Part shown: piece after piece, positions 15,222-53,598 of the stretch
Position numbering within the stretch: the stretch's first letter is position 1
How the letters are laid out: each line of letters starts with the position of its first letter
Source: Bacteroidia bacterium
GTDB taxonomy: Bacteria > Bacteroidota > Bacteroidia > J057
NCBI GenBank assembly: GCA_033391075.1
Contig: JAWPMV010000001.1
Span: 6,138,001 to 6,202,000, forward strand
Direction: 5' to 3'
DNA length: 64,000 nucleotides
The notes under the pieces: model-generated
What the model was told of the DNA's origin: nothing
Database searches by the model: none
Seen by the model: the letters and a program-made list of their open reading frames with translations, nothing else
Translations under genes and position numbers: made by a program

Positions 15222-16040
15222 ATGGATAAAAAATTGAGAATCCTCTACGTAACATCAGAAATTGATCCATTTCTAAAAATGAGTTCTGCTGCTGATCTCA
15301 TTCGTTTACTACCTCAAAAACTTCAAGAAAAAGGACACGAAATTCGCATTTTTATGCCAAAATTTGGTGTCATCAACGAGCGCAGGAATAGACTCCATGA
15401 GGTTGTTCGCCTTTCTGGAATCAATATCCGTGTTGGCGGCGAAGAAAAACCCCTTACCATCAAGGTAGCTTCTATTCCCAATGCCAAACTACAGGTTTAC
15501 TTTTTAGATAATGAGGATTATTTCAAACGCAAATCTGTTCTGACCGATCCAAATAACAATACTTTCCATATTGATAATGATGAGCGTGCTATCTTCTTCT
15601 GTAAGGGAGTGATAGAAACAGTCAAGAAATTAGGCTGGGCTCCAGATATTATTCACTGTCATGACTGGATGACTTCATTTATTCCCTTATATTTGCGCAC
15701 GCAATATAAAGATGATCCTCTCTTCAAGCGTACCAAAACAGTATTCACCGTTTATAATAATGGCTTTGAATCTGAACTCGCAAACAACTATTTGGACAAA
15801 GTTCGCGTCGATGGTATAGCAGATGAGAAATTAGACAACTATACGGGAAATAATTACGTTGGAGTTGTCAAAGGAGGAATCGCCTTATCTGATATTGCAA
15901 CAAAGGGTCACCCAGAGGTAGATGCGACACTCGAGAAGTATCTTGAGGAGACGCAATCTGAAAAGATCTATTTCGATAGCAGTGACAAAGAATCTTATGT
16001 TGAAGGATATCACAAATTGTACGCAGACATTTCAAACTAA
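15222..16040 (+). CDS. Starch/glycogen synthase catalytic-domain protein (GT5 N-terminal half only)
   Basis: The product of 272 aa corresponds to the N-terminal Rossmann half of GT5 glycogen synthases: ILYVTSEIDPFLKMSSAADL takes the place of the K-x-G-G-L-A/D motif, and IIHCHDWMTSFIPLYL matches the conserved HxHDWQ region. The C-terminal GT-B half that binds ADP-glucose is absent, and no frameshifted remainder follows because the DUF4270 gene begins at once. In Bacteroidota this short form is regularly found next to panC and DUF4270, so it is a stable family rather than a broken gene. The usual K-T-G-G-L motif reads LKMSSAAD, which makes glycogen synthesis doubtful. Confidence 0.85.
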   Translation: MDKKLRILYVTSEIDPFLKMSSAADLIRLLPQKLQEKGHEIRIFMPKFGVINERRNRLHEVVRLSGINIRVGGEEKPLTIKVASIPNAKLQVYFLDNEDYFKRKSVLTDPNNNTFHIDNDERAIFFCKGVIETVKKLGWAPDIIHCHDWMTSFIPLYLRTQYKDDPLFKRTKTVFTVYNNGFESELANNYLDKVRVDGIADEKLDNYTGNNYVGVVKGGIALSDIATKGHPEVDATLEKYLEETQSEKIYFDSSDKESYVEGYHKLYADISN

Positions 16041-16047
16041 ATTAACT

Positions 16048-17370
16048 TTGTATAATTTAAGGAACACGTGGCTGTCCGTAATTTTAATAGCGGCAGCCAC
16101 ACTTTTTTTTGCCGGATGTGAAGAAGATGGACAGGGGATAGGAGCAGAGGTATTGCCCCCCGAAGACATCATTAATTTTACCTTCACCGATACTATAAGT
16201 ATCGAGATCGAGACCATCGTTCAGGATAGTATCAATACTTACAGAGCCACAGATCTCCTCTTTGGAAATTATGCGGATCCTGAATTTGGTCGAATAAAAG
16301 CAACGATTTATACAGAATTTATCGCCCGATCAGGCCTCGACTTTGGAGAAGCTGATGATCTGATTTTGGATTCTGTAGTCCTCGCTCTGGGTATCCGTGA
16401 TTCTTATGGACGCCTGGATCTGGAAAACAATATGGAAGTCTTCGAATTGGATGAAGATATTCCCGAACCAGATTTAGCAAATTCAGATGTCCCTTTGATT
16501 ATAAAAGGAGACAATCTCGCTCAGGGAGTCAGGTTTACCTATGACTCAGCAGGAAGAGCACAGCTCGTTCGTGTTCAATTAGATAGGGCTTTCGGAGAAA
16601 GACTTCTGAAAGCAGGGGTGGAAAATCTAGGAGATGCACTCGCTTTCCGAGAGTTCTTCAAAGGTTTTGCCATCAGCACAGAAGATGTACAGTTCCTGAA
16701 TCGCGAACCGGGAGCAATCTTTTCAATTGACGTTTTGGATGGGACTCCCCAGCTCCAGATGTATTATAAGAAAAGAGAAAGTGGGCAATTTACTGTCCAA
16801 ACTCCTGAGCCTTTCCTCGTTACAGGCTCTACGCCCAGATATACTGGCATCGCACGTACGGCAACCGAAGGGAAACTGATACAACAGGCCATTGATAGAG
16901 AAGACCTGAAAGATCAACTCGAACTCATCCAGGCAGGGGCCTTTGTCAAGAATTTTGTCAAGTTCCCCCATGTAGATAAAATGGATTTGGTCGCTGTAAG
17001 TCGTGCAGAACTCCTACTCTCTGTTGACACCAGCCTTTTGGGATCAACCGGCGCTTTTCTACCTCCTGCTCAGATTGCTCCCATTCTTGCAGATGCAGAT
17101 GGGAACGAGGAATTGAACGAAAATGGGTTTCCTGTTGATGTAGAATTTAACCTGAGTGCTGTAGCTTCTTATGATGCTTCCACTGGTACTTACAGTTTTG
17201 ACCTCACGGGTTATATCCAGCGTTTGATTAGTGGGCAAATAGAAAATAATGGGATTCTTTTGCATCCCGCTTCCCGCGCCTTCACAATGAATCGGGCTGT
17301 ATTTGGAGGGATTTTACATCCTACCTTAAAAGCAAAATTGAATCTGACTTATACCAGTCTTCCGCGTTAA
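16048..17370 (+). CDS. DUF4270 outer-membrane-type lipoprotein
   Basis: The longest frame opens at 15922 inside the upstream gene, but the sequence before the signal peptide is out-of-frame shadow. A TTG at 16048 gives LYNLRNTWLSVILIAAATLF followed by lipobox FFAGC, so I take it as the start (441 codons including the stop). After the lipid Cys comes EEDGQGIGAEVLPPEDIINF, the usual opening of DUF4270. The rest is beta-rich, ending in an LTYTSLP strand. DUF4270 proteins are lipoproteins of unknown role found across Bacteroidota. The gene starts 7 bases after the GT5 stop, so the two form an operon ended by a strong hairpin. Confidence 0.85.
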   Translation: MYNLRNTWLSVILIAAATLFFAGCEEDGQGIGAEVLPPEDIINFTFTDTISIEIETIVQDSINTYRATDLLFGNYADPEFGRIKATIYTEFIARSGLDFGEADDLILDSVVLALGIRDSYGRLDLENNMEVFELDEDIPEPDLANSDVPLIIKGDNLAQGVRFTYDSAGRAQLVRVQLDRAFGERLLKAGVENLGDALAFREFFKGFAISTEDVQFLNREPGAIFSIDVLDGTPQLQMYYKKRESGQFTVQTPEPFLVTGSTPRYTGIARTATEGKLIQQAIDREDLKDQLELIQAGAFVKNFVKFPHVDKMDLVAVSRAELLLSVDTSLLGSTGAFLPPAQIAPILADADGNEELNENGFPVDVEFNLSAVASYDASTGTYSFDLTGYIQRLISGQIENNGILLHPASRAFTMNRAVFGGILHPTLKAKLNLTYTSLPR

Positions 17371-42388: not shown

Positions 42389-44491
42389 ATGAAAAAGAAA
42401 ATTGCCCACACTACACGGCCAATTCTGAAAGATATTTGGCTCACTACTACATTACTCTTATTCCTTTCCCTTACCTTAAGCATCACTTCCTGTTCAACGA
42501 AAGCAGAAAATCCCTATAGCCCTCACAACCTCATGGGAAGAGGCTTTGGCTTGAGTTCTTCCAGCCTATTGGTTCAGAACCTGGACAGTGCGAGCACCTA
42601 CTTTCAAGAGGTACTCGGATTTAATGTGGCGAAGAAAGACAGCTTCGAAAAGGGATTCTATGAAGGGAGTAGAAACCTCATGATCTCTTTCGCAGATATG
42701 TCCTCCATCGAATTGCTTTCCCTGGAAGATTCGATCAGCAAAACAGATGCTAATGCCTTTATACAGGATTTTCTGGAAAAACAAGAAGGCGTAGGCATGT
42801 ACTCCCTTTCCAGTTCGGCGACAGATAGTACAAAAGCCTGGTTGGGAAGTCAGGGATTCATGATGGATTCCATCCAATCTCATTCGATTCCCAGTCAATT
42901 TGGCAGCGGAAACTCTAAATGGGAAGATGGCAAGAGTCAGGTTTTCCATCTGACTTTGAATGACAGTGTGAAAGCAGGATATATGCCGGACTTTATGGAA
43001 GCAGCGGATTTCCCCTTTCAGCGCATGCATGAGTGGAATAGCTTCTACCACATGCAGAGGGAATTTCTGGGGCAGCCGAATGGCGTTTTAGGAATCATTG
43101 CCTTGCACATCGCCGTTGAGGACCTGGGGATTGCGAGAAAAGAGTTTGCGAAGATGGGATTAAGTGAGTTGGATTCTATTCCCTCAGATAAAGAAGCTCG
43201 CTTTAAGGTGAAAGGGAATCAGCTGCTTCACCTGCAAACGCCCCTTTCGCCGGATGATGAAGTCTTCCAATTTCTCGATCAAAGAGGCCCAGGCGTCTTT
43301 GCCATTACATTCGAAGTAAAAGATCTGGATGCGACCTATGAGTTTTTGCAAGATAAATTGGAAGAAGGGGGCTTACTCAGAGATACTGTCGCGGGGCGCA
43401 TAACTATCCCCGCAGACTTTGCCTTTGGTGTCCAATTGGAATTTGTAGAGGAATCCGAAACTCAGGCCCAACTGGCAGAAAAAATAAAAATGAATTTCGG
43501 AGGAAAGTTGGACAGCACAGCTTCTGCTTATGCCGAGGAAATCTACATAAAATACTGTGCGCTTTGTCATGGAGAAAATCGCGAAGGATATGCTGCCGAT
43601 AATGCTCCATCCCTCAAATCAAAATCTTTGATGGCAACTGCCAAGACCTCCAATTTCCTCCGATACACCATTCAATACGGCAGGGCCAATACAGCCATGG
43701 CAGGTTATTATTCGGAGCAGGGCGGACCTTTGGAACTAATTGAAGTCGAAATCCTCTTGAAATGGCTACACGAACAAAGTGGGGTGGAAGAACCCATCAA
43801 TTTATCCCGAGAAACGGTCGCAGGTGATCCTGAATTGGGGGGCGAAATCTATGCAGCAAAATGTGCCGTATGCCATGGAAAAGATGGAGAAGGAATTTCT
43901 GCACCTGCATTGGGCAACAATATGCTACTGGCAACTGCTACAGATGAATTCTTAAAATATGCCATCAAAGAAGGTCGGGACGGAACGCCTATGGTCGCCT
44001 TCAAGGATAGCCTGAAAGAAGAAGAAATAGATGGATTGACTGCCTTTCTCAGAAGTCGTTCTTCGGGTTGGGATGTACCGAAGGGGGATAGTGTGAAAGT
44101 GCCCGAAGCAGAAGAGTACGTCCTGAATCCGAACAATAAAAATCCCGACTTTGAGCTCCGCGATGGACTCTACCTTTCTGCCGAACAATTGAATAAAGCC
44201 ATGGGAGATAGTGCACGTATGGTATTGCTGGATGCCCGTTCGACCGTGGCCTGGAAACAGACACATATCCCGGGTTCGATTCCCGTTCCTTACTATGAAG
44301 AACCCGAAGCCTTTGTGGAGAACATCCCTAATGACAGTACCTGGATTGTGGCATATTGCGCTTGTCCGCATGCGGCTTCAGGCAGAGTCATCAAAAAGCT
44401 AAAGAAATATGGCTACAAGAATCTGGCAATTCTGGATGAAGGCATACTCGTTTGGGCTGAAATGGGATTTCCAGTTCGACATGGGAATTAG
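42389..44491 (+). CDS. Lipoprotein fusion: VOC-like, two cytochrome c domains and rhodanese
   Basis: The product of 700 aa has a lipobox SITSC (Cys35). Residues about 50-355 contain VOC (glyoxalase/bleomycin-resistance-like) modules: SLLVQNLDSASTYFQEVLGF, LHIAVEDLGIARKEFAKMGL and FAITFEVKDLDATYEFLQDK. Two class I cytochrome c domains follow, with heme motifs CALCH (390-394) and CAVCH (492-496) and candidate axial Met in NTAMAGY and DGTPMVAF. The last 110 residues are a rhodanese domain: LLDARSTVAWKQTHIPGSIP and the active-site loop YCACPHAASGR (Cys657, Cys659). The combination suggests periplasmic redox chemistry on a sulfur or small-molecule substrate, with electrons passing through the hemes; the substrate is unknown. 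Confidence 0.85.
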   Translation: MKKKIAHTTRPILKDIWLTTTLLLFLSLTLSITSCSTKAENPYSPHNLMGRGFGLSSSSLLVQNLDSASTYFQEVLGFNVAKKDSFEKGFYEGSRNLMISFADMSSIELLSLEDSISKTDANAFIQDFLEKQEGVGMYSLSSSATDSTKAWLGSQGFMMDSIQSHSIPSQFGSGNSKWEDGKSQVFHLTLNDSVKAGYMPDFMEAADFPFQRMHEWNSFYHMQREFLGQPNGVLGIIALHIAVEDLGIARKEFAKMGLSELDSIPSDKEARFKVKGNQLLHLQTPLSPDDEVFQFLDQRGPGVFAITFEVKDLDATYEFLQDKLEEGGLLRDTVAGRITIPADFAFGVQLEFVEESETQAQLAEKIKMNFGGKLDSTASAYAEEIYIKYCALCHGENREGYAADNAPSLKSKSLMATAKTSNFLRYTIQYGRANTAMAGYYSEQGGPLELIEVEILLKWLHEQSGVEEPINLSRETVAGDPELGGEIYAAKCAVCHGKDGEGISAPALGNNMLLATATDEFLKYAIKEGRDGTPMVAFKDSLKEEEIDGLTAFLRSRSSGWDVPKGDSVKVPEAEEYVLNPNNKNPDFELRDGLYLSAEQLNKAMGDSARMVLLDARSTVAWKQTHIPGSIPVPYYEEPEAFVENIPNDSTWIVAYCACPHAASGRVIKKLKKYGYKNLAILDEGILVWAEMGFPVRHGN

Positions 44492-51414: not shown

Positions 51415-53598
<2,184 letters not shown>

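Follow-up and report, generated by a model that had tools for sequence, protein, structure and literature searches.

A conserved lipoprotein family that joins tandem class I cytochrome c domains to a rhodanese with a C-x-C-P-H loop

What may a single lipoprotein do that carries VOC-like, cytochrome c, and rhodanese parts in one chain? The window, i.e., the whole stretch of 64,000 nucleotides analysed from a Bacteroidia bacterium, was found to contain a single open frame on the forward strand (nucleotides 42389–44491) in which a lipobox is followed by a VOC tandem, a pair of class I cytochrome c domains, and then a rhodanese domain (Table 1). The original prediction had placed the lipobox SITSC, the haem motifs CALCH and CAVCH, a VOC-like part, and the loop YCACPHAASGR in this frame, and all of them were found there, with VOC, cytochrome c, and rhodanese each above the Pfam cut-off in the domain search of the translation. 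In the protein, P0001, the motifs were located at C35 (SITSC), 390–394 (CALCH), 492–496 (CAVCH), and 656–666 (YCACPHAASGR). The Pfam matches were far above chance; these were Glyoxalase_3 at residues 60–251 (42.0 bits, cut-off 25.1), Glyoxalase_4 at residues 240–322 (33.8 bits, cut-off 27), Glyoxalase at residues 256–351 (23.7 bits, cut-off 20.6), Cytochrome_CBB3 in two stretches (63.4 bits, cut-off 27), and Rhodanese (PF00581) at residues 597–691 (48.9 bits, cut-off 22.2). Among the non-overlapping ORFs of the window of at least 150 aa, P0001 was the sole one to bear CxxCH motifs, of which it contained two. According to the lipobox rule for bacterial lipoproteins, with the Cys after the hydrophobic segment judged by eye, P0001 is predicted to be lipid-anchored. 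The structure predicted from a 12-row alignment had a mean pLDDT of 45 and gave no usable model of the whole protein; the block means were 59–93 at residues 481–560, 64–87 in the signal segment, and mostly below 60 elsewhere. The VOC region predicted alone had a mean pLDDT of 31.

Table 1. Positions of the lipoprotein gene and its parts in the window.
Feature	Nucleotides	Strand	Remarks
Whole gene, 700 aa lipoprotein (P0001)	42389–44491, including stop	+	ORF; full-length orthologues
Signal sequence and lipobox SITSC with predicted lipid-anchor Cys35	42389–42493	+	C35 invariant in 7/7 full-length orthologues
First VOC region, residues 50–229, Glyoxalase_3/MCE-like; presumed strand-1 His site is S57	42536–43075	+	
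Second VOC region, residues 230–365	43076–43483	+	
Cytochrome c domain 1, residues 376–466	43514–43786	+	CALCH 43556–43570; Met437 43697–43699
Cytochrome c domain 2, residues 481–562	43829–44074	+	CAVCH 43862–43876; Met535 43991–43993
Rhodanese domain, residues 596–697	44174–44479	+	Nearest NCBIfam rhodanese model NF041203, score below cut-off
Rhodanese loop YCACPHAASGR, residues 656–666; redox-candidate pair C657/C659 with H661	44354–44386	+	

Six other full-length orthologues (51–59% identity) and one copy cut by a contig end were found, all in another class of the window's phylum. The VOC, cytochrome, and rhodanese models of Pfam matched all six, and the cut copy matched the cytochrome and rhodanese models. 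An assembly or annotation artefact joining separate genes would account for the unusual domain order, and nothing else speaks for it; as the same order was present at full length in six other genomes, an assembly fusion was ruled out, in agreement with the original prediction, and the probability of an artefact of either kind is negligible. In the window's class, a full-length copy was found in 1/395 genomes, which was the window's own, and a sample of 395 genomes of the phylum contained five other carriers (51–57% identity, nearly full length); both searches scored no more than two candidates per genome, so that copies may have been missed there. The sample of 195 genomes of the other class contained six carriers, the best at 59% identity. 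The gene was carried by 3/114 genomes in the order of G606 and by 4/92 genomes in the family of G549, including the cut copy in G851; the phylum, class, order, and family samples overlap. The whole-protein search of 60 relatives and of 22 genomes of the window's order found no full-length relative besides the window's own copy, and partial matches at E ≤ 0.001 were present in 36 of the 60 relatives. The match in G459 began at query residue 2 with one internal TAA marked in the translated searches; its ORF used in the alignments was 675 aa without a stop inside. Scanning genome contigs with P0001 gave 61 stretches at 20 loci, all through the cytochrome part, and no full-length relative; a plasmid search gave five records for the cytochrome part only, and viral contigs searched with the haem-haem-rhodanese profile gave nine stretches and no relative.

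Each of the seven full-length proteins contained seven cysteines, no more and no fewer, always at C35, C390, C393, C492, C495, C657, and C659; the first is the predicted lipid anchor, the next four belong to the haem motifs, and the last two form the C-x-C of the rhodanese. M437, M535, H661, and R666 were likewise invariant in the seven, and both Met residues, the candidate haem ligands, were kept in 11/11 aligned rows. The invariant positions of the seven orthologues numbered 26/181 and 28/136 in the two VOC parts, 51/91 and 55/82 in the cytochromes, and 55/102 in the rhodanese. Sequence conservation was thus strongest in the cytochromes and in the rhodanese; of all domains, the VOC parts were the least conserved.

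Both CxxCH stretches of P0001 were above the profile cut-off for class I cytochrome c (PF00034/PF13442). The CcoP model TIGR00782 gave 47.7 bits, under its cut-off of 179.95. In the contig-cut orthologue at L070 in G851, whose genome is 82% complete, CALRH replaced the first CxxCH, which is either a sequencing error or a real loss of one haem cysteine. The diheme thiosulfate dehydrogenase TsdA and SoxA possess an axial Cys as haem ligand; the seven orthologues contained no Cys outside the anchor, the haem motifs, and C657/C659, and no TsdA or SoxA-type family was listed for P0001 at E ≤ 1 in Pfam and NCBIfam.

In rhodaneses the catalytic Cys sits at the start of the loop after a strand. C657 followed IVAY, at this same position, and was kept in all 11 aligned rows. 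These rows, drawn from two phyla, also contained invariant Y656, C659, P660, H661, A662, and S664, and the CxCPH loop was present in every one of them and in the split rhodanese of G1070. The CxCP(H) loop was found in none of 18 other rhodaneses inspected, and 9 of the 18 contained CS(V/I)GYRS. The top NCBIfam rhodanese model for P0001 was NF041203 (E 5e-13), whose cut-off of 115 was not reached at 48.8 bits; the six relatives with a match scored 37.7–52.8 bits against the same cut-off. NF041203 is rhodanese_LYCAU, a rhodanese-related selenoprotein form with the motif CxU, as given in the accessible part of PMC13188914; the accessible part of PMC2398784, on rhodanese selenoproteins, gave nothing further on CxU. 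The C-x-C of P0001 corresponds by motif to CxU, whereas the model describes a single rhodanese domain over 126 positions and contains Sec where P0001 contains Cys. A pair of this kind with Sec at its second position points to a redox-active site; since P0001 scored 48.8 bits against 115, the analogy is one of nearest model and motif only. From these residues we infer that C657-x-C659 may be a redox pair. A separate observation concerned Anaeromyxobacter (G872), where L091 contained a rhodanese frame with an in-frame TGA (YCRGLG*SLS), possibly a selenocysteine protein of the UxxS type, a rhodanese selenoprotein form that is listed in the accessible part of PMC13188914. L091 was rejected as a CxU form because its TGA lies at a different position, and this TGA elsewhere in the loop therefore has no bearing on C659.

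The VOC part of P0001 was found to be a tandem, with matches over residues 60–251 and 240–351, and PF13468, PF13669, and PF00903 of the VOC/glyoxalase superfamily were all above cut-off. In profile search, the two parts were related to methylmalonyl-CoA epimerases and glyoxalases. Position 57, which we take to be the strand-1 His site of VOC metalloenzymes, was S/R/N in the seven orthologues, and at the other presumed ligand positions E108 varied as E/D and E351 as E/T. No invariant His was found in residues 49–365 of the seven full-length proteins. A metal-dependent VOC enzyme (MCE, glyoxalase I, dioxygenases) was not supported, as the His/Glu ligands were not kept. The VOC part was seen joined to the diheme-rhodanese core solely in the window's phylum, and its relatives in Myxococcota were without it. 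Because this is the least conserved domain, lacks an invariant His, and accompanies the core in one phylum only, catalysis by it is unsupported, as is the VOC chemistry of the original prediction. A stand-alone Glyoxalase_3 lipoprotein of the window's family (G005, L028), 24.6% identical to VOC residues 18–155, shared the lipobox-like start and Glyoxalase_3 above cut-off; it differed in its length of 293 aa, the lack of cytochrome and rhodanese, and the presence of the strand-1 His (by eye).

The haem-haem-rhodanese part was taken as core profile A2 and searched in 195 genomes of Myxococcota, the phylum of Anaeromyxobacter, of which six matched at E ≤ 1e-14. Three (G1052, G1053, and G1054) contained a fused core without VOC that covered the whole profile at E 9e-58 or lower, in frames of 412–422 aa (401–418 aa from the start codons used). 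A fourth, G1070, contained a diheme lipoprotein (L104:8485–9129) adjoining a rhodanese lipoprotein (L104:9132–9662) as separate genes, and the remaining two matched through the second cytochrome only. P0001 aligned with the three fused forms from residue 377–385 to the C-terminus at 33–37% identity (E 6e-51 to 5e-67). The 11-row alignment of both phyla contained 64 invariant positions, including C390, H394, M437, C492, C495, H496, M535, D615, R617, C657, C659, P660, and H661; C393 failed in G851 alone and R666 in one Myxococcota row. The split rhodanese of G1070 reads YCACPH, and all four Myxococcota forms contained the YCxCPH loop. Parts that are fused in some genomes and encoded side by side in another are, classically, taken to work together. 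As P0001 detected the fused forms at E 6e-51 or better, VOC-less forms in the window's phylum would have shown if scored, and none was present among the matches listed there. The core profile was searched beyond the window's phylum in these Myxococcota and in the 19 mixed-phyla genomes behind loci L029–L048; the whole core was never found in the 19, 11 of which matched at E ≤ 1e-6, each over cytochrome or rhodanese alone. The core of the family is the tandem diheme part with the rhodanese. The original prediction had spoken of a self-contained machine, and this is doubtful, since haem part and rhodanese are two adjacent genes in one genome, G1070.

In the tree of full-length proteins, the window protein joined two f113 genomes, opposite f110 and f92, with support 100/100. 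The f113 and f110 genomes belong to the same order, and the f92 carriers and the window were absent among the matches in its 114 genomes. The grouping of the window with f113, with f110 and f92 apart despite the order shared by f113 and f110, suggests that the gene was transferred horizontally at least once. In the shorter core tree with Myxococcota rows, f110 and f92 were still together at 95/99, and the placement of the window was not resolved.

We propose tentatively, at a probability somewhat short of even, that P0001 is a thiol/persulfide:cytochrome c oxidoreductase on a lipid anchor, with two electrons passing from C657/C659 to the two haems. The protein would be a lipid-anchored extracytoplasmic electron-transfer enzyme with a core of tandem class I cytochrome c and a C-x-C-P-H rhodanese. 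At C657/C659 its rhodanese site may accept a thiol, a persulfide, or another substrate with sulfane sulfur, and dithiol oxidation (or sulfur removal) would release two electrons, which the two putative His/Met haems would take up and pass on, either to a cytochrome oxidase or to a soluble cytochrome c. Two haems would match the two electrons of one C-x-C dithiol. The N-terminal VOC tandem may be a non-metal binding or docking module. The presence of the haem and sulfur parts together in a second phylum suggests a sulfur/thiol redox device outside the inner membrane. Rhodaneses are usually regarded as carriers of sulfur that depend on another enzyme for redox chemistry. A wider claim would make the protein a new class of extracytoplasmic enzyme: the C-x-C-P-H pair of the rhodanese would be a true two-electron redox centre wired directly to two haems, through which the oxidation of thiols or sulfane sulfur would feed the cytochrome pool with no flavin, molybdenum, or non-haem iron involved, and in one phylum a VOC pair free of metal would receive the substrate. 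This claim is doubtful.

The genes around the carriers bear on the main rival. In the window, gcvH and a TPR protein lay on the upstream side of the gene and an APH-like kinase on the downstream side, with no obvious link, and no sulfur-oxidation genes were recognised among the carrier neighbours that were run against Pfam. The gene in G606 came after a TonB receptor, DUF1826, and two CobW genes, and a Peripla_BP_2/FecCD/ABC set followed two genes later. In G549, the gene came directly after a set of this type, whose FecCD was 66% identical to that of G606, and two Pyr_redox-type proteins lay near (L065:155–2250). G851 contained a metallophosphatase 78% identical to one of G549, with a Fur-family regulator and MerC close by and, beside these, a 220 aa frame that is FolE by eye. 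A fused Exo_endo_phos/acid phosphatase protein adjoined the gene in G549 and G505. G459 had a TonB receptor about 4.6 kb off on the other strand, which shared 21.5% identity with its counterpart in G606, and G459 and G575 contained comparable binding-protein/CobW sets elsewhere in the genome. The + strand genes alongside in G575 encode a low-molecular-weight phosphatase and, by eye, ArsR-like and aquaporin-like proteins. The recurring neighbours were metal-uptake genes and phosphatases, which, like the lack of recognised sulfur-oxidation genes and the CALRH of G851, counts against the oxidoreductase. These metal-type surroundings of several carriers make a role in metal limitation the main rival, in which C-x-C-P-H would bind a metal or a metal complex, or pass it on, and its redox state would be set by the haems. 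Besides the sets around the gene in G606 and G549 and the Fur-family regulator and MerC of G851, it is favoured by the occurrence of COG0523 with DUF1826 in Zur-regulated clusters, as given in the accessible part of PMC2770081. The binding protein was also found (E ≤ 1e-20) in 5/8 carriers and 2/24 non-carriers (Fisher p 0.005), in a post hoc test prompted by the link in G606 and G549, with hand-picked non-carriers and mutually related carriers; without G606 and G549 the counts were 3/6 and 2/24 (about p 0.04, by hand). Against it, the binding-protein matches in G000 (the window's genome) and G575 were just 31–32% identical, that of G000 (31%) lying among genes that are sugar-metabolism-like by eye, and no metal-type genes were recognised beside the gene in the window, G764 (an 8 kb contig), or G575, while G459 contained the distant TonB receptor only. 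A scan with three consensus patterns gave scattered weak matches and no shared Zur-like box in 10 carrier loci and upstream of the window gene. We consider the metal reading unlikely.

The residues that support an oxidoreductase would serve equally for flow in the reverse direction, in which the diheme part receives electrons and reduces a C-x-C disulfide, making the protein an anchored disulfide/persulfide reductase for thiol repair or sulfur release. G1070 gives a hint, and a hint only, of thiol chemistry: about 5.7 kb upstream of the split form, the same strand encodes AhpC/TSA-like and thioredoxin-like proteins (L104:1590–2761), but the thioredoxin-like genes are not adjacent to it. Class I His/Met cytochromes are usually of high potential and poor disulfide reductants, so that their potentials would be ill-suited to the task, and we regard a reductase as quite improbable. 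Alternatively, the protein may be an ordinary diheme electron carrier whose rhodanese and VOC parts serve for binding or as a scaffold and catalyse nothing. Rhodanese domains without activity are common, the VOC part is without an invariant His, and the cytochromes resemble ordinary CcoP/bc1-type diheme domains. However, the rhodanese falls little short of the haem domains in conservation, and its loop keeps both Cys and the His in two phyla, which argues against a scaffold, since lost function would free these residues; such a carrier is distinctly unlikely.

Several side observations were made. Recurring sets of Peripla_BP_2 and ABC ATPase, variously with FecCD, CobW, DUF5916, and NAD_binding_9, were seen at L063, L065, L083, and L084, and these sets of the carriers are perhaps a metal-limitation island. 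Fusions of Exo_endo_phos with class B acid phosphatase were found at L065:10262–11875, L068:6611–8383, and L083:14301–15926; they adjoin the gene in two carriers and stand beside the metal-type set in a third. The window itself contained two overlapping + frames of 272 and 482 aa at 15222–17370, the first glycogen-synthase-like by eye, and a frame of 723 aa on the − strand at 51415–53586 whose N-terminus is, presumably, catalase-peroxidase-like, as judged by eye.

If the oxidoreductase reading is true, a rhodanese C-x-C is physically coupled to two haems in two phyla, which would be a direct route for thiol or sulfur electrons to cytochromes and would assign a function to a family of multi-domain lipoproteins that is as yet uncharacterised. 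Since anchor, haems, and proposed active site account for every cysteine in the window protein and its full-length orthologues, these would form a clean test system.

The original prediction had called the order of VOC, cytochrome, and rhodanese unfamiliar, and this was confirmed as far as the open-licence literature goes, in which we found no published description of the VOC-diheme-rhodanese or core architecture, a search that does not prove absence. The multi-domain lipoprotein family is real, conserved, and built of known domains, and is undescribed as far as searched. The Myxococcota core proteins resemble P0001 in the haem-haem-rhodanese order, the Met candidates, the YCxCPH loop, and 33–37% identity, and differ in the lack of VOC and, in G1070, in being two lipoprotein genes. 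CcoP (TIGR00782; PDB 3mk7 chain C) shares the two CxxCH domains in tandem, and PDB 3mk7 chain C was the best PDB match of both P0001 and the core profile; P0001 differs in its score (47.7 bits against the cut-off of 180) and in its fused rhodanese and lipobox. CcoP is anchored by membrane helices, where P0001 has the lipobox. Rhodanese fusions are described in the cable-bacteria paper PMC13047784, in whose accessible part the rhodanese and cytochrome domains are in separate proteins. Its rhodanese-persulfide dioxygenase and SQR-rhodanese fusions differ from P0001 in that the partner is persulfide dioxygenase or SQR, with cytochrome and VOC unmentioned in them in that part of the text; like P0001, they join a rhodanese to a redox enzyme, which in their case is one of persulfide or sulfide oxidation.
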